Shown: piece by piece, positions 1-23,219 of the stretch
Position numbering within the stretch: the first letter of the stretch is position 1
Layout: each line of letters starts with the position of its first letter
The notes under the pieces: model-generated
Databases searched by the model: none
Told to the model about the DNA's origin: nothing
Seen by the model: the letters and a program-made list of their open reading frames with translations, nothing else
Source: Aminicella lysinilytica
GTDB lineage: Bacteria; Bacillota; Clostridia; Peptostreptococcales; Anaerovoracaceae
Assembly (NCBI RefSeq): GCF_004362975.1
Contig: NZ_SNXO01000018.1
Location: 1-44,396, forward strand
Direction of reading: 5' to 3'
DNA length: 44,396 nucleotides
Position numbers and translations under genes: made by a program

Positions 1-31
1 GTATGAGCTTCACATTGATTTTATTGGCCAT
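1..31 (-). CDS. Start of a probable IS21-family transposase IstA (partial)
   Basis: Ten codons are visible before the window edge, beginning MANKINVKLI and read leftwards. A good ribosome binding site (GGGAGG, 9 bases upstream) marks the ATG at 31. The opening residues match what I recall of IstA proteins of IS21 elements from gut Firmicutes, but ten residues cannot prove this. If right, the DNA from 32 to about 165 is the terminal region of that insertion sequence. No other function can be argued from so short a piece. Confidence 0.4.
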   Translation of the reverse strand, partial: MANKINVKLI

Positions 32-165
32 TATTGTTGGCCTCCCTTCTGTATATTTGAGTTATCACTCATGTATATTGTACAGAAGTTCTGTATAAAA
101 GTGGAGCTAATGTGCGTATTGATGTCAAGTAGGGCTATCAACTATACAGGTGGGGCCATAAAGAG
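32..165. mobile_element. Probable terminal region of the IS21-type element
   Basis: Non-coding DNA between the putative istA start and the 31-bp repeat at 166. On the minus strand it contains the 12-mer TGACATCAATAC, which occurs again on the plus strand at 8347-8358 beyond the right-hand repeat. Both copies therefore point away from the 166-7682 block. The exact IS tip cannot be placed. Confidence 0.3.
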
Positions 166-196
166 TATCACTGGTGCTTATGACGCGAAATATTCA
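166..196 (+). repeat. Left copy of perfect 31-bp inverted repeat
   Basis: Begins TATCACTGG and ends AAATATTCA. Its exact reverse complement is at 7652-7682. Identity stops abruptly on both sides (G/C mismatch outside, C/A inside). The GMP synthase-like gene loses similarity to its family exactly at the inner edge; the last residues read from this repeat are a foreign tail. Confidence 0.9.
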
Positions 197-1203
197 CAAC
201 CGGGACAAACGGTAAAATATTGCCAAATTGATTGATCAAGACCAGCCTTTGCGATTTCCTCTCTTAAAATAGCATCGGATTCTCTAACAAATTCCAATTT
301 GTCTCTAGTTATTGCGCCAACTACCCTAACTCCAAGGCCAGGGCCGGGGAATGGTTGTCTCCAAACCTGTTCATGTGGGAGCCCTAGAGCCTCTCCAACA
401 GCTCTCACTTCATCTTTAAATAACCATTTTACAGGTTCAAGGAGCTGGAAGTCTATGTCTTCTGGTAGTCCACCAACATTATGATGGGATTTTACTACAC
501 CCTTATTAGAAACACTTTCGATTATGTCAGGATATATGGTACCCTGAACCAGAAAGTCCATTTTACCTAGTTTCCTTGATTCCTCTTCAAAAACCCTAAT
601 AAACTCTTCGCCGATTATTTTACGCTTTCTTTCAGGCTCATCTATGCCATCTAGTTTCTCTAAAAATCTATCTACCGCATTTATTGTAATAAGAGGCATT
701 CCAAACTGTCTTCCAAAAATCTGATCTATTAGTTCAGGCTCACCTTTTCTCATAAGTCCATGATTTACAAACATACATGTTAACTGATTGCCAATAGCCT
801 TATAAACTAGGGCTGCACACACCGAACTGTCAACACCTCCAGATAGTGCACATAAAACTTTTTTATCTCCAACAGTTTCCCTAATCTGCTTAACTGCATC
901 TTCAATAAAGGCATCCACTGTCCAATCACATGTGAACCCACAGACTTTAATAAAACTTTCAATTTCTTCGACGGATTTTAAATTACCCTTTTCTAAAACA
1001 GGTACATTTAAAGATTTCACCTTTGATAGATCTGCATCAACTTCATCATCACCTACCACAATCACTGCCTTAGGATTAAGTTTTTCTAAATCCTGGTTAT
1101 CTGGCTTCACTTCACAGTAAACTTTGGACTGTCTGGCTATTTTTGCCACCTGTTGATTATTATGTGCCCCAAAGTCAACTACTAACAATAGTTCTTTATT
1201 CAT
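178..1203 (-). CDS. GMP synthase-like protein, glutaminase domain gutted and C-terminus truncated
   Basis: The ATP pyrophosphatase half is intact: the P-loop SGGVDSS near residue 120, the [11 protein letters not shown] stretch, and [13 protein letters not shown]. The N-terminal glutaminase domain is reduced to about 80 residues instead of about 190: it opens like GuaA ([13 protein letters not shown]) but the GxCxG nucleophile segment and the catalytic His/Glu part are absent. The C-terminal dimerisation domain (about 80 residues, normally ending KPPxTIEWE) is missing: similarity stops at QYFTVCPG and the last few residues come from the 31-bp repeat. Start at 1203 is supported by AGGAGG 8 bases upstream. 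An intact guaA lies at 21389-22957. The internal shortening is in frame and may be an ancestral variant; the 3' truncation is a rearrangement, so the product is probably inactive. Confidence 0.85.
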
Positions 1204-1242
1204 GGCTTTGCCTCCTGTATTTTTATTTATGTGAAAATTATA

Positions 1243-1709
1243 CTATATAGAATTTTGGTTCGCAATGAATTGCGCCATTATTTCCGCAGCATTCCTTACA
1301 AGTTGAGAACACGGCCTTTTCCTGTAATACTCTTTTGTTCGAGGTTCCGGTACCGGACTTTGCCTCTTTTCTTCTAGCCCTAATAGATTCCTGCATATCA
1401 AATTCCCGTTTTCTTTTTCAAACTCTTTTGCCAATTGCTGGATTCTCTCATAGTGGTTCTTTTTCCCTTCTCTATCATCAGGGTCAGCATATCCATAAAT
1501 CATGCCGGCAACCATAAACATTCCGGTTACTGCACCACAAACCTCCCTTAACCTTCCCATTCCTCCACCAAAAGATGAGCTGATTTTAAGAGCTGTTTCC
1601 TCATCCATATCATACATGTCACTAAAAGCTAAAAAACAGATTGCGAACAATTATATCCTTTTTCAAAAAGCGCTACAGCTATATCTCCGTACTTCCTATC
1701 TTCGTTCAT
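1243..1709 (-). pseudogene. C_GCAxxG_C_C family protein, frameshifted
   Basis: The downstream frame encodes a putative redox-active or metal-binding protein with the family's spaced cysteines: CGAVTG near the middle, then GNLIC and RPCSQLV. The true start is the ATG at 1709 (ribosome binding site GGAAAG). It reads MNEDRKYGDIAVALFEKGYN, then CSQSVF, and hits TAG. A run of six T (1631-1636 on the other strand) is one base short: seven would join the N-terminal piece, including the first conserved Cys, to the LAFSDMYDMDEETA frame. This is either a genuine phase-type or inactivating frameshift or a sequencing error in a homopolymer. Family members are usually 130-160 residues, as the repaired product would be (about 155). 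Confidence 0.8.
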
Positions 1710-1775
1710 ATATCTTTCCTTTCAATTTTTTTCATTATATATCATTTAGCAACCTTTAGCAAAAATAAATGAAAA

Positions 1776-1814
1776 ACCTCACAATCACTTCTAGAAGTAA
1801 CTGTGAGATTTTAC
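1776..1814. terminator. Bidirectional rho-independent terminator
   Basis: CTCACA and TGTGAG arms enclose the palindrome ACTTCTAGAAGT, giving a near-continuous stem of about 15 pairs. A T tract follows on the minus strand (GTTTTTC) and a shorter one on the plus strand (ATTTT). It lies just downstream of the small gene 1830-2030. Confidence 0.75.
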
Positions 1815-1829
1815 ATGATTTTGACTTTA

Positions 1830-2030
1830 TTAGAGACCTATTTTTTTTCCTTCTTCAATTATCTTGTAGTATTTAAGAAAACCTTCTGCATTCTTTATCG
1901 AAAATCCGTGGGGACTAATGATCTCAAGCATGAGGTTCGGCTCTGTTACTACACATTTGCAGCTTTGAAATCCAGGCATGTACAAAATATTGTCATTACT
2001 GGCTCTAATTAAATTCTTTCCAAAATGCAT
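1830..2030 (-). CDS. Small hypothetical protein, 66 residues
   Basis: I do not recognise the family. The ORF has a strong ribosome binding site (AGAGGATAG, then ATG at 2030), a good promoter upstream (see 2064-2092) and a terminator downstream, so it looks like a real monocistronic gene. The protein contains a CKC pair near residue 24 and a charged C-terminus. No membrane segment or signal peptide is seen. It could also be the surviving part of a longer decayed gene. Confidence 0.5.
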   Translation of the reverse strand: MHFGKNLIRASNDNILYMPGFQSCKCVVTEPNLMLEIISPHGFSIKNAEGFLKYYKIIEEGKKIGL

Positions 2031-2063
2031 TTTGTCTATCCTCTTTTCGTTATTGTAATACTT

Positions 2064-2092
2064 ATTCTACCACCATAGAGAGAATATTCCAA
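2064..2092 (-). promoter_or_regulatory. Sigma-A-type promoter for the 66-residue gene
   Basis: Minus-strand -35 TTGGAA (2092-2087) and -10 TAGAAT (2069-2064) with a 17-base spacer, about 35 bases ahead of the ATG at 2030. Confidence 0.55.
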
Positions 2093-2298
2093 TAATTATT
2101 TACTGACAAAATGTTCTGATTATTGACAATATGTGTTAATGTTATAATTTTTTTAGAAATATCAGCCTCATATTCACTGCCATCTGCACTCTGCATTTTG
2201 CTCAGGGTACATTTACACCATTCGGGAGATGTTTGAAGTCACATAAACGAAAATATTACTCTCCGTCTATATTCTCAATTCGAATTTGGTATTCAGGA
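2093..2298. other. Gap with a possible gene remnant
   Basis: No complete gene. On the minus strand an open frame from about 2245 to 2062 contains EWCKCTLSK and DGSEYEADI, ending at a TAA inside the promoter above; it has no start with a ribosome binding site and looks like the tail of a decayed gene. Confidence 0.3.
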
Positions 2299-2790
2299 TC
2301 ATTTTTCTTTTGCCCGCACAAGCTCTATAGCTTCTTTTCCACTCATATGTTCAATGTCAAGTTCAATAAGACATACTTGATCAAATTGATTATCAATTAC
2401 CTTTAGCCTTCCCTCTTCCTGCATAGGAGAATATCTTTCTGCAATTTTTTCGATGGCATGTCTTTTTTCTACTGGATCAGAAATAATATGTGCTTTCCCA
2501 AAGACAATTACACTCCTAAAGTAAGTAGTATACTCTTCCGGTACTATCTGATCTTTATCTATTACACAGAAGGATACTTTTTCATTACTAGTGATAGCAT
2601 CAACCTTATGACCTGTTTTTGCACAGTGAAAGAATACTTTTTCCTCCTGATACACGTAGCTGAGAGGTACAGAATATGGATATCCATCATCCCCGTGTAC
2701 TGCCAACACTCCTGATGTTCCATTTTCTAAAACTTTTACACTATCTTCCTTTGATAAGACTTGTTTTATTCGACGCATTTCTCGAAACAT
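2299..2790 (-). CDS. Pyridoxamine 5'-phosphate oxidase-fold (NimA-like) flavoprotein
   Basis: A 163-residue protein beginning MFREMRRIKQ. It has the split-barrel FMN-binding pattern of the NimA/PNPOx-like family: GTSGVLAVHGDDGYPYSVPL near the N-terminus, then VFFHCAKTGHKVDAI and VSFCVIDKD, and YFRSVIVFGKA. Members of this family in anaerobes are often named nitroimidazole resistance proteins or flavin-dependent oxidoreductases; the substrate cannot be read from sequence. The start at 2790 is preferred over an upstream ATG at 2844 because GAGGTG lies 6 bases before it and family similarity begins there. It sits alone between gaps and is probably monocistronic. Confidence 0.85.
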   Translation of the reverse strand: MFREMRRIKQVLSKEDSVKVLENGTSGVLAVHGDDGYPYSVPLSYVYQEEKVFFHCAKTGHKVDAITSNEKVSFCVIDKDQIVPEEYTTYFRSVIVFGKAHIISDPVEKRHAIEKIAERYSPMQEEGRLKVIDNQFDQVCLIELDIEHMSGKEAIELVRAKEK

Positions 2791-2872
2791 ATGGTCACCT
2801 CTTTCTTTTATTTCTGTGATAAAAATATAACGTCTATTATCCATTCCTTCAAAGGCCTAACGGAACAAATAA

Positions 2873-2902
2873 AAGACGTTACCCGGCGGTAAATTATTTT
2901 TT
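2873..2902 (-). terminator. Possible terminator downstream of the NifB-like gene
   Basis: A short hairpin, TTACC-CGGC-GGTAA (2879-2892), with T-rich sequence on both sides (TCTTTTATTT on the minus strand). It lies between the NifB/NifX-like gene ending at 2948 and the flavoprotein gene. The stem is short, so the call is modest. An 8-bp inverted repeat TAACGTCT/AGACGTTA (2828-2835 and 2874-2881) overlaps it. Confidence 0.4.
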
Positions 2903-2947
2903 TCAGTTTACCACATTAATAAATCAAAATCAATAGACGACTGACTA

Positions 2948-3307
2948 TTAGTGCTTTCCACATTCATCTGCATGCTGATGCTCGTGACATACAGATCCAG
3001 TTGACTTAAGCTTTCCATCTAAATATGACAATACATTTCCCTTTGCTTCGCCTGCTGCACCAACGATAACTTCGATACCTCTCTCGTTAAAAATATCAAT
3101 GGCACCGCCACCCATTCCGCCGGAGATAATTACATTAACACCTAATTCGTATAAATAATTAGGTAAAAATCCTGGTTTATGGCCTGGGTTAGGAATAGAC
3201 TCTTCTTTTACTATTTCTTTATTCTCTACCTCGTAGATGTTAAAATTCTGGCAATGTCCAAAGTGTCCTGCTGTCATCTTTCCTTCACTTGCTACTGCTA
3301 TCTTCAT
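2948..3307 (-). CDS. NifB/NifX-family metal-cofactor binding protein (distal)
   Basis: 119 residues with the dinitrogenase iron-molybdenum cofactor family fold: an N-terminal MKIAVASEGKMTAGHFGHC, a central VIISGGMGGGAIDIF, and a His/Cys-rich tail ending HEHQHADECGKH that could bind metal. Proteins of this family carry Fe-S or Mo-containing clusters in anaerobes that lack nitrogenase. It is the last gene of the 5434-2948 operon, after two MinD-type ATPases. Strong AGGAGG-like ribosome binding site before the ATG at 3307. The His-rich tail distinguishes it from the first NifX-like gene of the cluster. Confidence 0.85.
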   Translation of the reverse strand: MKIAVASEGKMTAGHFGHCQNFNIYEVENKEIVKEESIPNPGHKPGFLPNYLYELGVNVIISGGMGGGAIDIFNERGIEVIVGAAGEAKGNVLSYLDGKLKSTGSVCHEHQHADECGKH

Positions 3308-3340
3308 AATTTTTTCCTCCTATAATCTTCCATTTATAAT

Positions 3341-4210
3341 TTAATTTTTTTCTGACTTATTCATTATTTCCAGAGTGTTTTTTAGAATACTCTGGAGTTC
3401 TCTGCCGGCGATACAATCTATCTGGGCAATACTTTTCCTGCTGTTAATGGCCACCGATGCCTTATGATCAAAAGGGATTAGCCCGGCAATCTCTGTTTGA
3501 TTTTCTTGGCAAAACTTTTTTATTCTCTCAGTGTTCTCTTCATTGATATCATATTTATTTATGCATACCGCATGTTTTACATTAAAAAGTTTTGCTGTTT
3601 TTAGGATTCGCTGTAAGTCACTGATTCCAGATACCGTAGGCTCTGTTACAATCAAAACCATATCAACCCCACTGATGGAGGCAATAACAGGACATCCAAT
3701 CCCGGGAGAGCCATCAATTATAGAAATCTCTTCCTCTCCAACATCCTTCATGCTTTTCTTCACCTCGGTTACAAGCTTGCCCGAAGCCCCAGCTCCCATT
3801 TTTAATTTTGCAGTTGCAAAGTTTGAACTTCCGTTATATACAAGAACCTCTCCATTTACAGCCTCTACCATGGTTATGGCCTGAACCGGACAAACATAGG
3901 CGCAAACTCCGCAACCTTCACAAGCATAAGGGTCCATGATAATCTTTTCTTTTAATGATATTGCACCAAAATTACAATTATCTTTGCACAAGCCGCACTG
4001 AGTGCATTTTGTGTAATTTATACTGGCCTTAGGCAGTCCGTAAAAATCTCTTTTATCCGGTTTCCCCTGCGGAGGCACTGTAATATGAAGATTTGGGGCA
4101 TCTACATCACAGTCTGCATATGATTTTGATTTAAGTAAATAAATCAACGCAGAAGCCACTGTAGTTTTACCGGTTCCACCCTTTCCACTTAAAATCAAAA
4201 GCTTTTTCAT
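3341..4210 (-). CDS. MinD/Mrp-type P-loop ATPase with ferredoxin insert (second of pair)
   Basis: About 289 residues. A deviant Walker A motif, SGKGGTGKTT, is at residues 7-16. Two 4Fe-4S ligand sets follow (CTQCGLCKDNC and CEGCGVCAYVCP, about residues 70-115), then the ATPase fold resumes with IIDGSPGIGCPV and VLIVTEPTVSGISDL. This arrangement is typical of the paired ATPases of Orp-type clusters, thought to help assemble or deliver Fe-S or Mo clusters. The ATG at 4210 is preferred over the in-frame GTG at 4216 because AAGGTG is correctly spaced. It overlaps the stop of the upstream paralogue by 4 bases, indicating translational coupling and probably a heterodimer. Confidence 0.9.
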   Translation of the reverse strand: MKKLLILSGKGGTGKTTVASALIYLLKSKSYADCDVDAPNLHITVPPQGKPDKRDFYGLPKASINYTKCTQCGLCKDNCNFGAISLKEKIIMDPYACEGCGVCAYVCPVQAITMVEAVNGEVLVYNGSSNFATAKLKMGAGASGKLVTEVKKSMKDVGEEEISIIDGSPGIGCPVIASISGVDMVLIVTEPTVSGISDLQRILKTAKLFNVKHAVCINKYDINEENTERIKKFCQENQTEIAGLIPFDHKASVAINSRKSIAQIDCIAGRELQSILKNTLEIMNKSEKN

Positions 4211-5043
4211 TGGCACACCTTCTTTTCCACTATTCCACTTAAGACATTAAATATTCTTTTAGCTTTATCATTTGAATAGTATACTATCTCACCATTAGAA
4301 TTATCCCTGCCCAAGTCTTTATCAAAAGGTATCTCTGCCACAATATCAATCTTGTTTTCTAGGCAAAAATCTTTACTTGGGTTTTCCTCTTCGGTACATT
4401 TATTTAAAACAATACCTAAAGGCTTTTCAAAAACAGTTACAAGCTGGTGTACCATTTCCAGGTTATGCCTACCAAACTCTGTAGGTTCTGCAACCAAGAT
4501 GCAGTAGTCTACATCCTTTATAGATTCCATTACCATACACCCGCTTCCCGGAGGGCAATCGATAACAGTGTTTCTATTATCAGGTATGCTTCCTAAAAGC
4601 TCTTTAATAACAGGCACTCCCGACGCTTCCCCTATATTCATTATCCCTGATAAAAAGTGAGTCTCTCCAGACTTTCCAACTAATACTTCTCCAACTTCTT
4701 TTTTCTCTTCAGATACTGCATCATACTTGCAAACTATTTTACAGCCTCCGCAGGGATGACAAATCTCCGGAAAAACAATCGGAGTACCTTTAATAAAAAC
4801 CAATGCATTAAATCTGCAAAAATCCACACACTCCCTGCATCCTACACACTTTTCTTTATCAAAAGCAGGAAGATATATGGTTACTTTCTTCTTTTCAATA
4901 ATTTCTGGCTTAAAAAACAATTTGCCATTTGGCTCCTCTACATCACAGTCCACATAGGTGCTCTTTCCTAAGGCCGCTGCCAGATTTACCGCTACAAAGG
5001 TTTTTCCGGTTCCTCCTTTACCACTTAAAATAGCTATTTTCAT
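4207..5043 (-). CDS. MinD/Mrp-type P-loop ATPase with ferredoxin insert (first of pair)
   Basis: 278 residues, same architecture as the following gene: SGKGGTGKTF at residues 7-16, then ferredoxin ligands CVGCRECVDFC and CHPCGGCKIVC (about residues 63-105), then VIDCPPGSGCMV and ILVAEPTEFGRHNL. The two paralogues are diverged but collinear, as in known anaerobe clusters where both are needed. Ribosome binding site AAGGAA lies before the ATG at 5043. The gene lies 25 bases after the NifX-like gene, in the same operon. Confidence 0.9.
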   Translation of the reverse strand: MKIAILSGKGGTGKTFVAVNLAAALGKSTYVDCDVEEPNGKLFFKPEIIEKKKVTIYLPAFDKEKCVGCRECVDFCRFNALVFIKGTPIVFPEICHPCGGCKIVCKYDAVSEEKKEVGEVLVGKSGETHFLSGIMNIGEASGVPVIKELLGSIPDNRNTVIDCPPGSGCMVMESIKDVDYCILVAEPTEFGRHNLEMVHQLVTVFEKPLGIVLNKCTEEENPSKDFCLENKIDIVAEIPFDKDLGRDNSNGEIVYYSNDKAKRIFNVLSGIVEKKVCQ

Positions 5044-5068
5044 CTTATCATTCCTTTCAAGTCAAAGG

Positions 5069-5434
5069 CTATTTGGAAAACCCATGGTTATGAAAACCTT
5101 CATGAATTTCACTTAGTATTTCTAACTTTCCTTGATTGAATTTTTCTATTTCTTTCTCAACATCTTCTGAAGTTGTCTTATATATTTTTATTTCTGCTGC
5201 ATCTAAAACAATTGCGGCATTCTGTCCACATCTTGGAGTCAAAACAGCGTCTGCTTTCTTGTCTACAATAAGCTGTGCCGCCTTAGTACCTGCACCTCCC
5301 GCTGCATCTGCCGCCGGGTTAACAATAAATTCTCTCTCTTTAGTTTCTAAATCCACCATAAGGAATAATGGCGTTCTTCCAAAAGACACACAAACTGTAC
5401 CCTTGTCTTCATTTACCGGTATTATTATTTTCAT
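5069..5434 (-). CDS. NifX/NifB-family metal-cofactor binding protein (proximal)
   Basis: 121 residues. The family fold is visible: MKIIIPVNEDKGTVCVSFGRTP at the N-terminus (C15 in a position often used for cluster binding), AQLIVDKKADAVLTPRCGQNA in the middle, and a His-containing tail (GFHNHGFSK). It is the first gene of the operon running to 2948. GAGGGGAA before the ATG at 5434 is a good ribosome binding site. It may be the cluster-carrying protein of an Orp-like complex; the metal is unknown. Confidence 0.85.
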   Translation of the reverse strand: MKIIIPVNEDKGTVCVSFGRTPLFLMVDLETKEREFIVNPAADAAGGAGTKAAQLIVDKKADAVLTPRCGQNAAIVLDAAEIKIYKTTSEDVEKEIEKFNQGKLEILSEIHEGFHNHGFSK

Positions 5435-5475
5435 ATTTTCCCCTCATTTCATCATCCATTCATCTCATAGCATTA

Positions 5476-5527
5476 TGAGCATATGTTTATTATGATATAA
5501 TTCTACCACGTTTTGAACATATGTCAA
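5476..5527 (-). promoter_or_regulatory. Promoter of the NifX-MinD-MinD-NifB operon with twin CATATG boxes
   Basis: Minus strand -35 TTGACA (5527-5522), spacer 16, -10 TAGAAT (5505-5500). Two similar boxes flank the -10: TGAACATATGTCA at 5514-5526, overlapping the -35, and TGAGCATATGTTT at 5476-5488, just after the start point. The spacing suggests a dimeric repressor; the DUF134 protein next door is a candidate binder (inference). Confidence 0.6.
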
Positions 5528-5571
5528 TAACCTATTTTATTTTTTCAAAAAAAACACTTTAAACCCTCTAA

Positions 5572-5610
5572 AAAAAAGAAAAACGCACCAGCAAAAGCTT
5601 GTGCGCATAA
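5572..5610 (-). terminator. Rho-independent terminator after the CoA-binding protein gene
   Basis: Minus strand: GCGCAC and GTGCG arms with an inner AGC/GCT pair, followed by TTTTTCTTTTTTTT. It separates the DUF134/CoA-binding unit from the NifX-led operon, which therefore has its own promoter. Confidence 0.8.
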
Positions 5611-5618
5611 TTAAACTT

Positions 5619-5975
5619 TTATTTACAATATAATCTTAATCCTACCAGTAAACATCCTTCTACATAATTAAGATTTTTTTCTTCTAGATACTCTATTAAT
5701 TCCTCACTTTCAGCTCCCGGCTGAATAACAATACACTTAAAATCTTTATTGCATTCTTTCATAAGCTCTAAACCTTTAACAGGATTAATACACAAATCTA
5801 CAATGTCGATATTGTCATCTATTTCATTTAAAGATTTTAGTTCTTTCCCTACTCCATAAGTGCGGTAACCGTGTTGTTCTAGTCCATCCTTTATTTTGCA
5901 AGCATATTTTTCTTCATTAATAGTATTTCCCACTACAGCAAATACTTTTTGGTCCATGATTTCCTTTAATTCCAT
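5619..5975 (-). CDS. CoA-binding domain protein
   Basis: 118 residues forming one Rossmann-like CoA-binding domain: VFAVVGNTINEEKYACKI at the N-terminus, GYRTYGVGKEL, DIVDLCINP, and FKCIVIQPGAESEELIEYL. This matches the YccU/succinyl-CoA synthetase alpha-like small family. Its role is unknown; members commonly accompany DUF134 and NifX/MinD genes in anaerobes. Ribosome binding site AAGGAG lies 7 bases before the ATG. It is 24 bases downstream of the DUF134 gene and ends before a strong terminator. Confidence 0.8.
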   Translation of the reverse strand: MELKEIMDQKVFAVVGNTINEEKYACKIKDGLEQHGYRTYGVGKELKSLNEIDDNIDIVDLCINPVKGLELMKECNKDFKCIVIQPGAESEELIEYLEEKNLNYVEGCLLVGLRLYCK

Positions 5976-5999
5976 CTTTTTTCTCCTTGATTAATAATT

Positions 6000-6464
6000 T
6001 TACTTATGCTTCCAACAGTTTTTATTGCAAAATTTACCTCTGCATTTTTTTAGGCAGTCAATTTTTATGGAGCCACATGTTGGGCATGCATACTTACCCT
6101 CTTTTATTAACTGTAAATTTTCAAAACTCTCTTTCCATTGGGTGTTGCAATCATCACACATAACGTTACAGATATACCGGGTATAATTACCACCGTCAAT
6201 ATGTATTGCCATACCATTTATAAGACTGTCTGCAATTTTTTTACGTGCAGAAAGTAATATTCTCTGGAAAGTAGGACGTGAAACTTCCATGCGCTCTGCA
6301 CATTCAGCCTGCTCTAGTCCTTCTAAATCTTTTAGTCTAATAGCTTCAATTTCCTCAACAAGAAGAACACTTACTTCAACACCTTCAATTCCCTCTTCAG
6401 ATGGGACAAAATAAGGAGCTGCAGGTATTTTTTCAATTTTACGTAATTTTATAGGTCTAGCCAT
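6000..6464 (-). CDS. DUF134 (UPF0251) family DNA-binding regulator
   Basis: 154 residues from the ATG at 6464, chosen because MARPIKLRKI is the usual start of the family and AGGAG precedes it. The N-terminal half has the family's helix-turn-helix: IEAIRLKDLEGLEQAECAER, then MEVSRPTFQRILLSARKKIA. The C-terminal half is cysteine-rich (CDDC, CPTC, then CLKKC and FCNKNC) and probably binds zinc or an Fe-S cluster. DUF134 proteins are recurrent neighbours of NifX/MinD clusters in anaerobes and are presumed transcription regulators. It heads a two-gene unit and is the best candidate regulator of the adjacent operon. Confidence 0.85.
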   Translation of the reverse strand: MARPIKLRKIEKIPAAPYFVPSEEGIEGVEVSVLLVEEIEAIRLKDLEGLEQAECAERMEVSRPTFQRILLSARKKIADSLINGMAIHIDGGNYTRYICNVMCDDCNTQWKESFENLQLIKEGKYACPTCGSIKIDCLKKCRGKFCNKNCWKHK

Positions 6465-6497
6465 AGTCTTTTCTCCTATTCTTATATGACTATTCCA

Positions 6498-6526
6498 ATG
6501 ATACCCTAAAATTCGCCTAATTGCAA
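6498..6526 (-). promoter_or_regulatory. Promoter of the DUF134 gene
   Basis: Minus strand -35 TTGCAA (6526-6521), 17-base spacer, -10 TATCAT (6503-6498), 34 bases ahead of the ATG at 6464. This supports the shorter start. Confidence 0.55.
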
Positions 6527-6548
6527 TTCTTTTACGGAACTGCAAAGA

Positions 6549-6592
6549 AGAAAAAGAGGACCCTTCGAAACGGAAGCTCCTCTTTTCTAAGT
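6549..6592 (-). terminator. Terminator after the amidohydrolase remnant
   Basis: AAAAGAGGA and TCCTCTTTT arms with an inner CTTC/GAAG pairing and a T tract on the minus strand. It ends transcription from the amidohydrolase pseudogene and insulates the DUF134 promoter. Confidence 0.8.
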
Positions 6593-6622
6593 TTATATGT
6601 ATGACTAATGCAAAACTATTTT

Positions 6623-7651
6623 TTATGCTTCGTAAATGGTTTCACCACCGATAATAGTTTTCAAAACCTTAATGTCCTTTATTTCTGAAATATTACAGTT
6701 CATGTAATCGTGATCTATTACTGCGAAATCTGCAAGTTTTCCTTCTTCTATTGAGCCTTTAATATTCTCTTCAAAACAGCCATAAGCGCCATCTAAAGTG
6801 TACGCTCTTAAAGCTTCATATCTAGTAAGTGCTTCCTGCGGGTTATATCCTCCTATAGGCTCTTCCTTTATGGTACAACGACTTACCGCATAATATAGAG
6901 ATTCAAAAGGATTTACAGAGTCAACCGGATAATCTGTGCCTGCTACTATTTTGATGCCTAAATTAAGAGCCTTTCTCCTATTCCATGAATTGTTGTTTGG
7001 AATCCTGCATCATAAGCTTTCTTTACTAGGGACTCTAACTCCTCAGAAGACATACGATTGTTGCCCTTGTGACCAGGTCTGTCTGAATAGTCTTCCAATA
7101 ACCAAGCACTTCTTGCACCTAAAGTTCCATCAGCAAAAATCTTTTGTCCTCTTACTGTTAATCTATCATCATACAATCCTATTTCCGGGCCATTTTTATA
7201 GTATTCGTCCAGCAATTCTCCTGGTCTAACATAGACATATGAACGAAGTTTAACTTTGTCTTCTTCGTAGGACTTTTTTAATGCCTTAATCATAGTATCT
7301 CCTTGGGCCGGTCCTGCCGGAGATAAAAATCCTGCACCTAAGTCAACAACTGTTGTTATTCCATTCTTAAGATAAGTCTTTTCAATAAGAGGAAGCATGT
7401 GCATTACATTATCCACAGTGTATGGTGGAATTATTTTGTCTACGGCTTGTGTAGCTGCATCTGTTAAAACTCCTGTTGCAACTCCCTTTTCATCTCTGAT
7501 AATTTCTCCACCAAGTGGGTCCTTAGTGTCATCAGTAATTCCGGCAAGTTCCAATGCCTTAGTATTAACCCATAAACAGTGCATGCAAACTCTATACATA
7601 ACTACAGGATTATCAGGACATACCTTATCTAAATCTTCTCTTGTAGGGAAT
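6623..7651 (-). pseudogene. Amidohydrolase (YtcJ-like) pseudogene
   Basis: Zinc-dependent amidohydrolase of the YtcJ/AepA type. The 5' third is missing: similarity starts at QFPTREDLDK, exactly at the inner edge of the right 31-bp repeat, so no metal-binding HxH region remains. The first frame (to 6958) runs through CLWVNTKALELAGI and LTVRGQKIFADGTLGARSAW to TTIHGIGER and then stops. The C-terminal part is present in another frame: LNLGIKIVAGTDYPVDSVNP, then EALRAYTLDGAY and SIEEGKLADFAV, ending at 6623. Compared with the family about 75-80 residues are absent at the junction (the RIEH...HASD section), so there is an internal deletion of about 240 bases with loss of frame. The gene is dead at both levels. 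Confidence 0.85.
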
Positions 7652-7682
7652 TGAATATTTCGCGTCATAAGCACCAGTGATA
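7652..7682 (-). repeat. Right copy of perfect 31-bp inverted repeat
   Basis: Exact reverse complement of 166-196. Its outer end lies within the serine recombinase reading frame (KLYGYHW), its inner end abuts the amidohydrolase fragment. Confidence 0.9.
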
Positions 7683-8210
7683 GCCGTACAGCTTTCGTTT
7701 GTAGAGTCCAGATGTTCCATTTGCAGCTTTCATGGCAAGTCCCATGCGGATATTTTCGCTTCGGCTCTCATTTTCAGCTTGAGCAAAAGACTCCATCACC
7801 GAAATCATAAGATTGCTGTCAACCTCATCGGTATCCAAATTTTCTTCTTCAAATATGATTCTGACTCCTGCTGTCTTCAATCGATTGATTGCTGATAATG
7901 TCTCTACAGTATCTCTACCAAATCGACTGATGCTTTTGGTAAGGACAACAGAGATATTGTGCGCTTCACATTCTCTAATCAATCGATCAAATTCTCTACG
8001 TGGAACTTCGCCTTTGGCAGACGCAATATCAATAAATACATCTGCCAGCCTCCATTGACTCACATTCGCAACTGCTCTCGTTAAAGCAGAAATCTGTGCT
8101 GCGAGGCTATAAAGCTGTTCTTTTTCGTTCGTACTTACTCTGCAGTAGATTCCAACATTCTTGTCCAAGCGGTCATTCCTTGCTGGAATATACCAAATCT
8201 TTGAATCCAT
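7665..8210 (-). pseudogene. Large serine recombinase, N-terminal half
   Basis: The catalytic resolvase domain is complete: GIYCRVST carries the nucleophilic Ser at about residue 25, followed by VFIDIASAKGEVPRREFDRL, VLTKSISRFGRDTVE and AENESRSENIRMG. The protein then enters the recombinase domain (GTSGLYKRKLYG) and is cut off after seven or so codons at the right 31-bp repeat, reading into a stop. The matching continuation (FRYSKNKDGD...) is found at 9439-9837, upstream instead of downstream. GGAGGTGAG before the ATG at 8210 is a strong ribosome binding site. Catalytic half alone is unlikely to recombine DNA. Confidence 0.85.
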
Positions 8211-8226
8211 CAGCTCACCTCCACAT

Positions 8227-8245
8227 TATAATTAGCCTAATTATA
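8227..8245. promoter_or_regulatory. Perfect 9-1-9 palindrome at the recombinase promoter
   Basis: TATAATTAG-C-CTAATTATA, 17 bases before the recombinase ATG. A minus-strand -10 TATAAT lies in the arm, with TTATCA 17 bases further up as a weak -35. Serine recombinases bind short inverted sites, so this may be an autoregulatory operator or crossover-type site (inference). Confidence 0.5.
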
Positions 8246-8671
8246 TTGCAAATTGGTGCCAATGATAAGTAGGCAATACATAACCCTAAAACGCGCAAAA
8301 AACCAATATATTGTGTTCGCGTAATTGTTTTTCGCTACATATCGCGTGACATCAATACTACGCACTCAACGTGGCTCGATACCTCGATTATGATGTCAGG
8401 TTACCAGGGTAGTCGCTGCCTGTTCGTGGAAACATATCGAGACGATTTTTCGTTTGCGGGAACATATCCATCGGCACGCTTGTACCTATATTATATGCAG
8501 CAGGGAATATCGGCTTTTTCGGCAATCGTCTCAACTTGCCGTTTTCACCGTCTCAACTTACCGCAACTGTTGCAAAATCTGCAACAGCTCACACCAACTC
8601 ATTCGAATTTTCCATGTGTTGCTCACCGTAACGAAGTCATCATGCATATCCATCAAGATGTAGCCTCTATA
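8246..8671. mobile_element. Non-coding debris with IS21-like end repeats
   Basis: I see no convincing gene here. Two imperfect 20-base direct repeats occur (around 8424 and 8453), both containing the core GGRAACATATC, plus a second pair GTCTCAACTTRCCG around 8529 and 8550. An 8-bp inverted repeat CTGTTGCA/TGCAACAG is at 8567-8587. TGACATCAATAC at 8347 matches the left IS-like end (32-165). Multiple short terminal repeats are typical of IS21 ends, so this is probably an IS remnant without its transposase. The 119-residue plus-strand ORF across it (8390-8749) resembles nothing and lacks a ribosome binding site. Confidence 0.35.
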
Positions 8672-8839
8672 TCAAGCCAAGTCTATCAAGACCACGTTTT
8701 TGATACAAAGATTTCTGTAGTAAAAAGGCCGAAAAAGCCCAGCAAATAAAGCATTTTCAGCAGTTCTTCGATAATTCCGGCTCTTCCTGCTCCTGTAAAA
8801 AGGTGTTTTTGGACGGGCCGTTACTGCTATTGCTGTCAT
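8672..8839 (-). CDS. Very small ORF, 55 residues, mobile-element type
   Basis: It begins MTAIAVTARPKT and has a perfect ribosome binding site (AAAGGAGG) before the ATG at 8839. I do not recognise the product. Codon use late in the ORF looks poor, and a one-base shift near GTAACGGCC would give a shorter, more hydrophilic peptide, so a frameshift is possible. Genes of this kind often sit next to recombinases in clostridial elements. Confidence 0.25.
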   Translation of the reverse strand: MTAIAVTARPKTPFYRSRKSRNYRRTAENALFAGLFRPFYYRNLCIKNVVLIDLA

Positions 8840-8911
8840 ATTTTCCGGGCCTCCTTTCGGTCGTAATAGGTAAAATTAAAAGTGGAGCAAAATTAAAATG
8901 TGTAATAAGCG

Positions 8912-9415
8912 TTACTCCTCATACGGCTTAACGCTATCTGTTTCTGCATCATACACCGCCAAATAACCAGTGTTATCGTAGTCAGTAGCATACAAATCCA
9001 CAGTATTGATTTTGGTCTGAGTGTTATATCCGTATTTCAGTTTTCCTGACCAAGCGCTACGATACCATCCATAGCTGGATATTTCTTCTTTCCACCCAGT
9101 AATCTGAACATAGAAGCACTCACCATTGTCTGTTGTAAAATTAATCTGATGGTTTTTGTAGGTGCAGGCATTCGCTTGGAGTGTGCCATTTTTGTTAATG
9201 TTCCACATATCATCAACTTTAGGAATACCCACATTGGCTAATATCGTTGCAATAGCGTTGGTTTCTTCTTTAGAATAACCAAGCGCATCCAGGCCCTCTA
9301 TTAGCGAAGTATCCTCGCTTAATTGAGGCACCGAGGTATTCTTAACATTCCCACCACATGCACTCAAGCTAAAAATCATTACCACACATATAAGAAAGAT
9401 GATTATTTTCTTCAC
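8912..9415 (-). CDS. Hypothetical secreted lipoprotein
   Basis: About 167 residues. The N-terminus is a lipoprotein signal: Lys-Lys, a hydrophobic stretch IIIFLICVVMIFSL and the lipobox SLSAC-GG. The rest is soluble, with YSKEETNAIATILANVGIP and a C-terminal beta-rich part (VDLYATDYDNTGYLAVY); no named domain recognised. The start is taken as the GTG at 9415, because GGAGGT lies 7 bases before it; the ATG at 9430 is itself part of that ribosome binding site. It follows the recombinase C-terminal fragment with overlap, suggesting a cargo gene of that mobile element. Confidence 0.7.
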   Translation of the reverse strand: MKKIIIFLICVVMIFSLSACGGNVKNTSVPQLSEDTSLIEGLDALGYSKEETNAIATILANVGIPKVDDMWNINKNGTLQANACTYKNHQINFTTDNGECFYVQITGWKEEISSYGWYRSAWSGKLKYGYNTQTKINTVDLYATDYDNTGYLAVYDAETDSVKPYEE

Positions 9416-9438
9416 GTTCGTTACCTCCATAAAATTCG

Positions 9439-9837
9439 TTATTTCTTTTTAGAACTATATTTCTTACTGCTGCGATGCGTACCATCGTCGTCAGTAATGA
9501 TATTGCTTCGCTTCTTCTTTTCTTCCTGAACAGCCCTGAACTCGCTCTCCGTAATGATCGGCGGATGACATTCTTTCATTTGGAACTCATATTGCTGTGT
9601 AGCAGAATCCAAAAGAGTTACCGTGCCTGTGTACTTCTCATTTTCAAGAATCTTCTCTACAGAACGCTTGCTCCACGTTTCTTTACCGGTAGGGGAAGGA
9701 ATACCTGCGTCTGATAGTTTCTTTATGATACCAAGCACGCTGGCGCCATCCAGATACCATCTGAAAATGTCCCGCACAACCTTAGCCTGTTCATTGTCAA
9801 TTACAAGGTCCCCATCCTTATTCTTAGAGTAACGGAA
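9439..9837 (-). pseudogene. Large serine recombinase, C-terminal half
   Basis: Open frame from about 9837, beginning FRYSKNKDGDLVIDNEQAKV, then VRDIFRWYLDGASVLGI and GKETWSKRSVEKILENEKYT, the recombinase domain, followed by a short Lys-rich tail. There is no start codon with a ribosome binding site and no catalytic domain. The start of this piece fits directly onto the end of the N-terminal half at 7683: joined, they read KLYG-FRYSKNKDG, a normal recombinase sequence. The halves therefore seem to come from one gene, now in swapped order on the same strand. Confidence 0.75.
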
Positions 9838-9953
9838 TTGATTTAGACCACATGTCTCATATTACAAATCCCGTCTCTCAATATATCTATTCTAAATCAG
9901 AATGTTAAAAATGACAATATATTTGATGCCTTCTTGCTATTTGTATATGTACT

Positions 9954-9971
9954 GGGCAGTTTTACCTGCCC
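9954..9971. repeat. Short hairpin downstream of the small peptide gene
   Basis: GGGCAG-TTTTAC-CTGCCC. It is placed like a terminator for the peptide gene but has no T tract, so termination is uncertain. Confidence 0.35.
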
Positions 9972-9976
9972 TGACC

Positions 9977-10126
9977 TTACCCAACTATTGTATTCAATAT
10001 TTCCTTTGCAACCCCAAAATCATATGCATTCGCATTCTCGGGATGCATACGCAACCCGTGAAACGATGCTCCAACTATCAAAGCAAAAGCGCATACAACA
10101 AGTGGGATTTTCCAATATTTCTTCAT
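9977..10126 (-). CDS. Small secreted or membrane peptide, 49 residues
   Basis: Reads MKKYWKIPLVVCAFALIVGA, then SFHGLRMHPENANAYDF and ends AKEILNTIVG. Two Lys, a hydrophobic core and a short polar tail form a signal peptide or single membrane segment. A clear ribosome binding site (GAGGTAA) precedes the ATG at 10126, which supports it as a real gene despite its length. It lies about 110 bases downstream of gajB on the same strand, with its own possible -10 (TATACT). Size and layout recall secreted pheromone precursors of RRNPP systems, but no cognate regulator is in the window; a phage-sensing or anchoring role is equally open. Confidence 0.5.
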   Translation of the reverse strand: MKKYWKIPLVVCAFALIVGASFHGLRMHPENANAYDFGVAKEILNTIVG

Positions 10127-10233
10127 CGTATTTACCTCAACAAACTGTAAGTTGTCGTTCTAATCTACATTTAACAGTATAAACATAATGGGAAATTCGA
10201 AGATTAAGAGCCAATAGCAAAGAAACCATCAAA

Positions 10234-11856
10234 CTATTTTTGTAGCGTTGTTAATTCATGAACATTTTCAGCTCCAAACAGTTTTTTAGCTCGTTCGATA
10301 ATTTGAACAGTCGGCTTGGGATAATATACAACGAGATTATCTTTTGCCCTGGAACAACAAACATAGAAAATCCTCTTAGTTCGTTGTATTATAGATTCTT
10401 TTCCAGGAGTTTCTTCGAAGTAATATTTAAAATTGTACATATTCCATTTTCCATTATCCATTATTACCAAAACATTATCAAATTCAGCGCCTTTTATCCC
10501 ATGCTGCGTTGAATATGGTGAAAAATCATTATAGTATTTGAAATAGGCAAGCACTTGAGACGCAGGCAAGGTCTTAATTTTGTCATACGTTTCAGCATGG
10601 TGTTCAATGAATTCATTAAATCGATCATCTTTACGGATTAAATGCTCCTTGTCAAATCCATTTATCAATTCTTCGATACATATGTCAAGATTTTCCGAAA
10701 AGTAAGTCAGTGCAGAACTAATTTTCTGCTTATCATCATTTGTTCGTATTTTTCTCTGGATTTCATCAATTACATATGAAAACTCCTTTTTACTGTAGTG
10801 AAACAAAACACCTCCGATTTTTAATAAATGCTGGGCTAAACGGTCAGGCTCATTACCAATCAGGCTTTCAGTATATTTATATGCTGCTAACAATTCTGCA
10901 AAGCCTAAGCGCATAGCACTTAGCTTATGCGTTAAAAAGAGCACCTTCGTTTCCCGAAAGTCATCAAAGTTCCAGCTCGCTACAAAGTCACTCGTCTTAA
11001 ATTTTCTCAAATCGAAATCACTATCAGAATATACAAAAATTGCACTGCCGATTTTATTGGCAATAGAACCATCTGGATTTTTCTTTGCAGGACGTTGAGT
11101 TATATCAGAACGTACATGATTTAGTAATTCAATTACATTAACAGCACAACGATAATTATCATCTTTGATTATTTCATGAACATCGCCAGCGATGATATAG
11201 GACTGAATATTACCAATTCCAGTTGCATAAATGGATTGTAGTTTGTCACCAAAAAACCCAACACACAATGAGCCTTTCGCAGGTGTTTTTATATGCTCCA
11301 AAAAGATTTCAATCACCGGCTTCTGTGTATCTTGATACTCGTCTATAAAAATATAGTCATACTTATCACACAATATCTTAGACAGCAGTGGGTATGTTGC
11401 AAACATGTGATTTGCGACTTTTAATAGATCATCATGAGAAATAATTCCATGCTCCAAGTCTCGATAATTTTGATACTCTATACAAGAAAAACTTTCTTCA
11501 TTAATCTCTGCTTCACTAGAATATGATAATCTGCTTTCTTTGTCCGACTTTTCGGCAGAAATCAAAGATAGTACCGTTTGTTTTAAATTCTTTTGATAGT
11601 CCTTAATTTCATCCCACAAAAAATCATGAATTGTGGATACGGTAAGCTTTGAATATGGCGACCTTTCTTTAATTTCATCAGCTGCTACATTGGTATAAGT
11701 AATACATGCGACACGCGCCTTTGGGTCGTTCTTAAAAACATGATGAAGTGTTTGTATAAGCGTGTAAGTTTTACCACTTCCTGCTCCGCCACTTAGGAGA
11801 AAGTTAATCTTGTTATCTAAGCATTGGCTGATTTGATCCATTACTGTGCCAGCCAT
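10234..11856 (-). CDS. gajB: Gabija protein GajB, UvrD-like helicase
   Basis: 540-residue superfamily 1 helicase. Walker A LSGGAGSGKTYTL is near residue 20, Walker B FIDEYQDTQKP near 170, motif III GFFGDKLQSIY near 205, motif V QHGIKGAEFDNVLVI near 450 and motif VI FYVCCSRAKDNLVVYY near 500. In Gabija, GajB associates with the GajA nuclease and helps activate it when phage depletes nucleotides or exposes DNA ends (known for the Bacillus system). The ATG at 11856 follows GGAGGG and overlaps the gajA stop by 16 bases, the usual coupled order. Length is slightly above the approximately 500 residues of the type example. A general repair helicase is unlikely given the partner. Confidence 0.9.
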   Translation of the reverse strand: MAGTVMDQISQCLDNKINFLLSGGAGSGKTYTLIQTLHHVFKNDPKARVACITYTNVAADEIKERSPYSKLTVSTIHDFLWDEIKDYQKNLKQTVLSLISAEKSDKESRLSYSSEAEINEESFSCIEYQNYRDLEHGIISHDDLLKVANHMFATYPLLSKILCDKYDYIFIDEYQDTQKPVIEIFLEHIKTPAKGSLCVGFFGDKLQSIYATGIGNIQSYIIAGDVHEIIKDDNYRCAVNVIELLNHVRSDITQRPAKKNPDGSIANKIGSAIFVYSDSDFDLRKFKTSDFVASWNFDDFRETKVLFLTHKLSAMRLGFAELLAAYKYTESLIGNEPDRLAQHLLKIGGVLFHYSKKEFSYVIDEIQRKIRTNDDKQKISSALTYFSENLDICIEELINGFDKEHLIRKDDRFNEFIEHHAETYDKIKTLPASQVLAYFKYYNDFSPYSTQHGIKGAEFDNVLVIMDNGKWNMYNFKYYFEETPGKESIIQRTKRIFYVCCSRAKDNLVVYYPKPTVQIIERAKKLFGAENVHELTTLQK

Positions 11857-13883
11857 TCCAATCCCTCCTTAATATATTGTGGAGTGGTCCACCCCTCATT
11901 ATTTTCACCGCCATACAAAAGAATATCAAGTGCAAATGAAGTTTTGCTGTCAATGCACCGAGCAGCTATTTCGTAATAATCTGGCGGAGTAGTTTGTAAA
12001 ATGTCTTTGTTCTTTAAGCTAGTAAAGTTATCTATATTATCAACAATGAACTGTAAATTATTATTGATAAAGGCATCTTCAAAACTGCGTGCCTGGTATC
12101 CACCTTCTTCTTTTTGAAACAATAATCGTAATTGTCCGTCACTGTCAGCGTTCCATTTTGCTGTAGCACTGTCATAGCTGAAGGTTATTGGTTTTGCAGA
12201 CAAGTCTACAATCTCATCAAGTTTTTCAAGCTGTGTGAAGAACTTAATGGACGCGTTCGTAGTTGTTGTTCCATCAGAAAATCTACATTTGCACTGCCGA
12301 CCATTTTCCCCAAGCTTTGCACAATCAAGATCAGTAATAATTAGCGTCTTAATGCCTAAAAATCCCAAGAAAACGGCAAAGATATGTGAATATGCCCCTA
12401 CCTCAATTATAGAAATATTTTGTGATAAAAGCGGCTCATATTTTGTTGCCCCTGTTTTTTCCGCATCAAGTTTTTTCATCATTGCAGAAAGCAACATTCG
12501 TTCGGTGTCGCCCTCAATCAAGATAGCTTTATTGGCAAAGAATAGCTCCGCACGATTCAAAGTCACATATTGCTTTACGAATCTATAAGAACGCTCTTGC
12601 TCTGCCTTAGTCGGGGCATCCTGTGCTGTAACCATTTTAGAGTATAGCTTTTTTAAACTGCGAGATTTCACGCTGACTGTCGACTCTCGGTAAAAATATT
12701 TGATATCGTTAAAGTCACATTGAGATACAATGTGAGATGAATGTGTACTGATGATGGTTTGCAACGAAAAGTCTTTTCCTGATGTGGCACTATGTTGCTT
12801 CAGTATACGCTTTATATTGGTAATAAAAATGTATTGCATTTGTGGGTGCGTATGTGCTTCTGGTTCCTCGATGAAAAGTAGATTTAGCGGGGTGGGGTTT
12901 TCGTCTGTCCGATTTTTTTTGGATAATTGGTCCAGCTTAATCCGTAAATTAAATATGATTGCAAACAAATTCAAATATCCCAAACCGTTATAGTCTTCTG
13001 GCAACATGGTGTTCTCATGCTTATATTTAACGGTTGTGTTATCTTGGAATATTTTCTTTTCGCTCAATGTTGAAAGAACAGAAAGTTCTGCTTCGTTAGG
13101 GTTGTATGACATCTCCGCGATTTCTTTCACAACGGGCTCAAAGAGCTTCTCATATATTTCAGATAAGCTCTCATCGGTATCTTGCAATTGTTTTTGTAGT
13201 TCAGGAAACTCCTCTTCCGACGAAACGCTAGCATTATAGTATTTACCAGCCAGTAATGATAATGCGTTGCTGTGTCCCTGCTCATTATCGACATCTCGTT
13301 TGGCGCCAATTGTTTGCATTGATATAACAGATCTTACAATATCACCTGAAACTATTTTGAAATTTGTCTCGTTTCCACATTCCAATGCCTTTACGCGCAC
13401 AGAAAAATATTGATTGATATTGTTACTGATGTAGTAAGAAAAATCACGATTGATGCCTTTTGCCGTATATGAAGCGTAATCGGTCACCAACTTCTGATAT
13501 TTTTCATATGTCAAAACATATTCAAACAACACAACAAGGCCATGTTTACTGTTATCCAAATCCAACAGGAGGGCAGCGGCATCACCTAGATTGTCTGTTT
13601 CTTCATAAGCTATATATAGTTTAAGTGATAGCGCAAGCTCAGTATAGTCTTCAGGTGGCTTTACGCCACCCTCAAGTGCAAGGATAGTTTCTTGTGCCTT
13701 AATACTAAAATCCTCAAATGCAAATTCTGGTTTGTTTTCTGAAAGAAATTTTTGCAAAATCGATAAAAACGATGTTTTACCGGAATTGTTTTTCCCTATG
13801 ACTAAAGAGAGGACATCTTCAAAATCAATATCCATTTCAGTCAACATTCTAAAGTTTCTTATTTGTGCAAACTCCAATTTCAT
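11841..13883 (-). CDS. gajA: Gabija protein GajA, OLD-family ATPase-TOPRIM nuclease
   Basis: 680 residues. The N-terminal ABC-type ATPase shows Walker A GKNNSGKTS at residues 30-38, Walker B LLFIEEPEAHTHP near 334 and the H-loop TIISTHSSHI. The C-terminal TOPRIM domain shows AILIEGDTERML near 450 (catalytic Glu) and IITDLDCAKL near 516 (DxD). GajA of Gabija is a sequence-specific DNA nicking endonuclease restrained by ATP; a pairing of an OLD protein with a UvrD-like helicase defines the class 2 OLD/Gabija system. The start at 13883 is preferred over 13901, because GGAGGG sits 6 bases before it. It is larger than the classic approximately 580-residue GajA, with the extra length after the TOPRIM core. 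Confidence 0.9.
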   Translation of the reverse strand: MKLEFAQIRNFRMLTEMDIDFEDVLSLVIGKNNSGKTSFLSILQKFLSENKPEFAFEDFSIKAQETILALEGGVKPPEDYTELALSLKLYIAYEETDNLGDAAALLLDLDNSKHGLVVLFEYVLTYEKYQKLVTDYASYTAKGINRDFSYYISNNINQYFSVRVKALECGNETNFKIVSGDIVRSVISMQTIGAKRDVDNEQGHSNALSLLAGKYYNASVSSEEEFPELQKQLQDTDESLSEIYEKLFEPVVKEIAEMSYNPNEAELSVLSTLSEKKIFQDNTTVKYKHENTMLPEDYNGLGYLNLFAIIFNLRIKLDQLSKKNRTDENPTPLNLLFIEEPEAHTHPQMQYIFITNIKRILKQHSATSGKDFSLQTIISTHSSHIVSQCDFNDIKYFYRESTVSVKSRSLKKLYSKMVTAQDAPTKAEQERSYRFVKQYVTLNRAELFFANKAILIEGDTERMLLSAMMKKLDAEKTGATKYEPLLSQNISIIEVGAYSHIFAVFLGFLGIKTLIITDLDCAKLGENGRQCKCRFSDGTTTTNASIKFFTQLEKLDEIVDLSAKPITFSYDSATAKWNADSDGQLRLLFQKEEGGYQARSFEDAFINNNLQFIVDNIDNFTSLKNKDILQTTPPDYYEIAARCIDSKTSFALDILLYGGENNEGWTTPQYIKEGLEWLAQ

Positions 13884-13977
13884 ATAATATCCCTCCATCA
13901 AAAAACTATTTTTCTATGTGAATTGCACCTAATTGCTACAATAGTCCCCTACAAGTTCCGATTTACAGAGCTGACCA

Positions 13978-14018
13978 TTGTAGTCCTGCGATAAAAATAT
14001 TATACCACAGGACTACAA
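13978..14018 (-). promoter_or_regulatory. Gabija promoter inside an 11-bp inverted repeat
   Basis: TTGTAGTCCTG (13978-13988) and CAGGACTACAA (14008-14018) flank a 19-base spacer. On the minus strand the spacer carries an extended -10, TGG-TATAAT, just inside the upstream arm. No good -35 is seen. The design fits a repressor operator over the promoter of gajAB, with about 110 bases of leader before the ATG. Confidence 0.6.
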
Positions 14019-22957: not shown

Positions 22958-23219
22958 AGTACTTCCTTCTCTATAAAGCATAAACAACCTCGCTCGCCAC
23001 AAAGGTTACCTGTAAAAGCAAAACACCAAGCATCTTACAAGTTTAAGATAACATCCTTGTGTGAACGATTCCACAGCGGCAGCTTTGTTTTCACGATGAG
23101 CGAAGCTTATGCTTTGTAAGAATTAAATAGCATCAAACTATTGGCTTTATTTAATGCTCAAAGCATTGCGAGCGATTCGTAGAAAACAAATGCCGCGAGG
23201 ACAAGTGAGCACAAGAATG
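22958..23219. other. guaB-guaA intergenic region
   Basis: 262 bases without a gene. I looked for a purine riboswitch and found no conserved junction sequences. A minor AAATAGCATCAAACTATT hairpin is at 23126-23143. The region must hold any guaA promoter or simply a leader. Confidence 0.4.

Follow-up and report, generated by a model that had tools for sequence, protein, structure and literature searches.

In a close published parallel, the composite transposon ISApl1-mcr-1-ISApl1, a donor chromosome segment lies between copies of the same insertion sequence (IS), and in single-ended structures one IS is reduced to its final 42 or 90 bp (PMC5821093). We describe here a locus that resembles it, in a 44,396-nucleotide stretch of the Aminicella lysinilytica genome (contig NZ_SNXO01000018.1, positions 1 to 44,396; hereafter the window). 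Its segment 197-7651, called the block, lies between two right ends of one multicopy insertion sequence, ISx, and probably derives from a composite-transposon-like capture of donor chromosome that has since decayed. As with the ISApl1 structures (PMC5821093), one of the two copies would later have been lost to a stub, of 31 bp instead of 42 or 90 bp; the differences are that the IS is another one, its copies are inverted, the cargo is metabolic and seemingly decaying, and no outer target duplication was seen. The block thus seems to be a recognisable kind of gene-transfer relic, and not a new system. If this is true, ordinary metabolic chromosomal DNA, bounded by an IS, has moved between families of one class and is now decaying, one IS being left as a 31-bp stub.

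The borders of the block are marked by a perfect 31-bp inverted repeat, at 166-196 (forward strand) and 7652-7682 (reverse strand), whose copies are identical and lie where a first-pass annotation of the window had put them. The expected count of perfect inverted pairs of 31 bp in the window is 1.7e-10, and all exact inverted 20-mer pairs found in it are parts of this repeat. Three genes end at the repeat, guaA, an amidohydrolase gene and a serine recombinase gene. That both edge genes are cut there, as first proposed, is borne out by profile matches: of the 310 positions in the guaA_Cterm model, the block guaA covers 2-237 and is interrupted at the repeat, so that 238-310 are lost, and the amidohydrolase open frame begins at the repeat, with a PF07969 match only from position 75. 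The halved serine recombinase reported outside the block is also real, its N-terminal part (8210-7683, reverse strand) ending at the repeat.

The first-pass annotation had made the repeat the boundary of the block; this is right as to position, and wrong as to ownership. The genome that contains the window (G000) amounts to 2.29 Mb in 91 contigs, of which 17 shorter than 3 kb were masked and 74 left unmasked. A search for other copies of the 31-mer, suggested at first pass, gave seven exact copies in this genome, and none more at up to 3 mismatches. In six of the seven, all at contig ends, the preceding 63-165 bp (to the contig limit) are the same with at most 2 substitutions, and the DNA that follows is different every time; the seventh copy (7652-7682) is preceded by the recombinase. 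Five other contigs carry this 31-mer as an IS terminus; it is thus ISx's outer right end and belongs to the flank, not to the block. On the left side, ISx copy A provides the inner part of its right end (1-165, forward strand), which runs off the contig start and recurs before the 31-mer in contigs C15, C25, C27, C56 and C65 with 0-2 substitutions, followed by the outer 31 bp (166-196, forward strand) terminating in ..GAAATATTCA. On the right side, ISx copy B, inverted relative to copy A, is a 31-bp remnant (7652-7682, reverse strand); the ISx interior is not present on its inner side, and a serine recombinase fragment stands there in its place. The block lies outside both 31-mers and so corresponds to the DNA enclosed by two ISx right ends that point inward.

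Insertion of an IS duplicates its target; the bases next to the right end of a given copy are therefore expected again just ahead of its left end. The right-end flanks were compared with the termini of each of the 74 unmasked contigs, a comparison in which many short matches were noise. The left end was revealed by two contig ends that had different duplications (CCTGT, C65/C11; GATAC, C25/C22) and the same new sequence, TGAATATTTCACAGTAGGAGCCCC. Searched with up to 3 mismatches, the left end TGAATATTTCACAGTAGG was found at five places in the fetched stretches, and two of the three further left ends, found from the left-end sequence, were also paired (ATAAT, C27/C6; GCAAT, C15/C67). C27 and C6 resemble the two halves of a putative phage portal gene. 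In total, 4 of the 7 right ends pair with a left end through an identical 5-bp target duplication, whereas none of 200,000 random sets attained four matches in a simulation that excludes the initial contig-end screening. Both IS ends and their target duplications can thus be recovered from a fragmented assembly by contig-end pairing. The earlier proposal that the block was captured by a recombinase-type element is not supported, the bounding repeat being an insertion-sequence end with 5-bp target duplications. A truncated ISx remnant was also seen in C29, where about 120 bp of the left end (L130 8157, equivalent to C29:27156) adjoin unrelated DNA and are unpaired.

Three motifs are common to both ISx ends, TGAATATTTC, ATGGCCCCAC and TTGACATCA. 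TG..CA termini are a trait of the IS21 family and are found in ISx, and short target duplications, also typical of that family, are of a size range that includes the 5 bp of the four ISx pairs. Compared with IS21-family elements (PMC10122671), ISx is alike in its 5-bp duplications and possibly in its motifs repeated at both ends (ATGGCCCCAC, TTGACATCA), and different in that its istA and istB genes were not seen in the unmasked contigs. ISx is an insertion sequence, then, and its ends appear IS21-like. Four IS21 transposases are present in the unmasked contigs, none of them beside an ISx left end, and the ISx body presumably lies in the masked contigs. Elsewhere, the 31-mer had no copy in viral contigs and none in named genome contigs (a set in which the own genome and very near ones were possibly left out), and two shorter ISx end patterns had no match in viral contigs. 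Window 1-240 gave no match to plasmids in distant mode, nor did window 1-8400 to plasmids and phages in near mode. With the 196-bp ISx end as query against 149 genomes (own included), a single other genome gave a match (31 bp, 87%), which lies upstream of an unrelated gene.

The origin of the block was approached through guaA. The genome has an intact guaA of its own in the same window (21389-23002), and the two proteins share 55% identity over 259 residues. In a tree of 18 GuaA synthetase domains (L043 gave no row), the block sequence grouped with two genomes of family f35 (support 99/97), and the own GuaA with family f67 (100/100). The missing tail of the block guaA matched only the own intact gene in the genome search and the fetched stretches, apart from four matches at E 1.1-6.6. 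Since the genome keeps its own intact guaA, the block guaA groups with another family and its remainder was not found, the block looks like a foreign bacterial chromosome segment from another family of the same class, and the suggestion of foreign chromosomal DNA made at first pass is supported; composition fits too, though it is common to other islands of the genome.

The two f35 genes also share with the block gene a short glutaminase part: 120 residues precede the synthetase motif in the block, 139 and 140 in f35, and 222 in the own gene. Because residues were counted from the first methionine of each open frame, the figures are too low for certain other rows (L040 and L051, for instance, which are otherwise long); L052 GuaA has almost no glutaminase part. 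As the f35 genes have it too, the shortening looks like a lineage trait and not decay. Short-glutaminase GuaA was in this way observed in two f35 genomes (L057 and L191; 429 and 428 aa) and in the block (178-1203), and these proteins are possibly ammonia-dependent GMP synthases. At the DNA level, 305 of 391 genomes of the class had some match to the block (own included), the best other one being 70% over about 720 bp of guaA. Among 206 genomes of family f51, one matched at 1e-95 (73% over 663 bp); none of 22 f31 genomes matched at 1e-90; and 2 of 12 f35 genomes matched at 1e-30, in guaA in both cases. When guaA was left out, 2 of 6 of these 12 genomes had matches. At the protein level, one scan of named genome contigs yielded only one weak locus (39% across 50 residues). 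By these comparisons there appears to be no close donor, and f35 is nearest for guaA only.

The sequence of events that best accounts for the block, and that we consider rather more probable than all others, would start in the donor, with ISx copies inserting in guaA and the amidohydrolase gene so that their right ends pointed towards the block. The IS-block-IS unit would then have moved to the host, both edge genes arriving cut and their remainders staying in the donor. Copy B would subsequently have been deleted to its last 31 bp and fused to codon 176 of the serine recombinase; at this joint, comparison with homologues indicates that the recombinase and ISx have TA or TAT in common. Copy A is probably complete, its sequence having collapsed in the assembly. 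Right ends of the same IS are found on both sides, one of them as a remnant, and the cargo looks foreign to its location; however, the right copy is 31 bp only and the left one runs off the contig. As the IS copies are not both complete, we speak of a composite-transposon-like relic, not of a composite transposon proper.

Several observations weigh against this capture between ISx copies. The recombinase sits where the interior of copy B should be, so that a deletion must be assumed. None of the five left ends could be paired with copy A (CAACC) or copy B (ATTCC), so no outer target duplication can be demonstrated; the right end on C56 (ATCCT) likewise lacks a partner among these five. Neither the ISx body nor its transposase was seen in the unmasked contigs. 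In the tree, the own GuaA row is a long branch whose exact place is unsure, and gene remainders inside the masked contigs could have been missed. A genome carrying the block was not found among the class, f51, f31 and f35 genomes searched. Composition helps little. The block has a GC content of 0.366, against 0.487 for 14001-44396, and the AT-richness noted at first pass is therefore confirmed relative to host DNA, but 7683-14000 is almost as AT-rich (0.380). The GC and tetranucleotide check proposed with it gave a mixed answer: among 184 windows of the fetched stretches (some overlapping), only 3 lay below the block in GC, 3 exceeded it in tetranucleotide distance and 3 had a weaker tetranucleotide correlation, but other AT-rich islands of the genome (C15, C24, C43, C61) have a similar tetranucleotide make-up, C15 being among the most block-like. 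Composition alone, with such islands in the same genome, proves little.

The most serious alternative, which we nevertheless regard as unlikely, is that the block came by another route (a conjugative element or transformation), that two ISx copies later jumped into its edge genes in the host, and that deletions removed the outer parts. ISx has indeed spread in this genome, and of the five right ends located beyond the window, four (C15, C27, C56, C65) are followed by AT-rich DNA and one (C25) is not. This course needs extra deletions, however, and the guaA remainder did not turn up in the search of the unmasked genome or in the fetched stretches. An assembly chimera, in which the block or its right neighbour was misjoined through the 31-mer, is less probable still. 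The multiplicity of the 31-mer in the genome and the presence of the recombinase instead of the expected ISx interior would both fit such a misjoining. Yet contig ends most often overlap by 95 bp (75 shared 21-mers; 80 pairs listed), as would come from a de Bruijn graph with k = 95 at repeats, and the right-hand 31-mer lies inside an unbroken contig; being shorter than this overlap, it is unlikely to have mediated a false join, for which the recombinase side would in addition have needed the 31-mer or part of it. The first-pass annotation had also suggested an invertible segment. That the block is inverted or excised by the neighbouring serine recombinase via the 31-bp repeat would fit an inverted repeat with a recombinase gene adjoining, but is scarcely credible, since the 31-mer serves as an IS terminus in five further contigs and so is not the recombinase's own crossover site, the recombinase is without its C-terminal part at the repeat, and the direct repeat that flanks its homologues is another one, of 26 bp.

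The genes of the block are all on the reverse strand. The predicted guaA (197-1203, open frame 178-1203; NF000848, TIGR00884) lacks its last ~73 model positions, and is followed by a putative C_GCAxxG_C_C redox protein (1243-1650), matched by TIGR01909 from position 8 and PF09719 from position 7, whose start is apparently in another frame (a frame change read by eye). A PNPOx-fold flavoprotein (2299-2844) is NimA-like by profile matches and falls under both curated Nim cut-offs (214 bits for a cut-off of 260); it was not called a resistance gene. Next come a NifX/NifB-like FeMo-Co domain protein (2948-3307, PF02579), two ferredoxin-MinD/Mrp-type ATPases (3341-4216 and 4207-5043, both PF01656 plus Fer4, with a gene order conserved in relatives), a second NifX/NifB-like protein (5069-5434, PF02579), a CoA-binding protein (5619-5975, PF13380), a DUF134 regulator (6000-6545, PF02001) and the amidohydrolase (6625-7651), which covers PF07969 positions 75-285 of 472, with its N-terminus cut by the repeat and its frame, in a three-frame reading, apparently broken near 6960. 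The order DUF134-NifX-MinD-MinD-NifX is complete in three stretches of other genomes (L041, L045, L055) and represented by 4 of the 5 genes in two more (L194, L195), so that the middle of the block is a natural gene cluster. Given the broken frames of the amidohydrolase and C_GCAxxG genes, the cargo seems to be decaying.

The serine recombinase at the right border (7683-8210, reverse strand; PF00239) is an N-terminal part of 175-176 residues, cut after ..RKLYG and before Y, with homologues in L187, L190, L198 and L199. In 3 of the 5 other matching genomes, DNA homology starts at window 7680; the other two match further inside. A C-terminal part (9837-9472; part given also as 9439-9837) lies on the same strand, 1.26 kb from the N-part and in permuted order. 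It starts where the N-part stops, the two meeting at residue 174-176; intact homologues have 306 and 308 residues (L198, L199). Identity to L199 is 86.3% for the N-part and 76.9% for the C-part, compared with 80.0 and 77.9% between L198 and L199; to L187 it is 65.7 and 69.0%. The N-part matched 390 plasmid and 249 phage records, all below 60% identity, of which the best 40 and 15 were inspected; three viral-contig loci were closer. We rejected a continuation of the C-part upstream as a decayed gene, as 66-136 of 200 shuffles reached the alignment scores.

L198, L199 and L200 contain units of 1.8-1.9 kb that are bounded by direct copies of a 26-bp motif; each holds a serine recombinase, which is degraded in L200, along with other DNA. 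This motif (GACATCAATACTACGCACTCAACGTG, 1-7 mismatches) is found at 265 and 2190 in L198, 154 and 1933 in L199, 3862 and 5650 in L200, and at 8348-8373 in the window; with identical alignment figures, L200 and L186 are probably one sequence. The copies in the three units lie outside the recombinase gene. The two recombinase parts could stem from two tandem units, each truncated, or from a single circle that opened at codon 176. The position of the 26-bp repeats outside the gene, and an N-part that is closer than the C-part to L198 and L199 (not to L187), favour tandem relics. On the second reading, a 2.15-kb circle corresponding to 7683-9837 and made up of the recombinase gene, a lipoprotein-like gene and the 26-bp repeat would have been opened exactly at codon 176 when the serine recombinase, in integrating, split the gene that encodes it; the circle would then have been placed next to the IS remnant, the two having a TA core in common. 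We hold this to be very improbable. Recombinases that disrupt their own gene are reported to occur only in archaea (PMC8371274). The window recombinase resembles the archaeal suicidal integrases (PMC8371274) in that its N and C parts are apart and permuted (7683-8210, 9439-9837), and differs in being of the serine type and bacterial, with codon 176 at most a hypothetical attachment site. If the circle were true, it would be a serine-type, bacterial counterpart of these integrases.

Next to the recombinase relics lies a Gabija-type defence pair (window 10234-13901), made up of a GajB-like helicase (540 aa, 602 bits) and a GajA-like OLD nuclease (686 aa, 789 bits). Further on, window 15682-18246 encodes an 854-aa surface-type protein that combines a thioester domain with four T-Q ester bond stretches.

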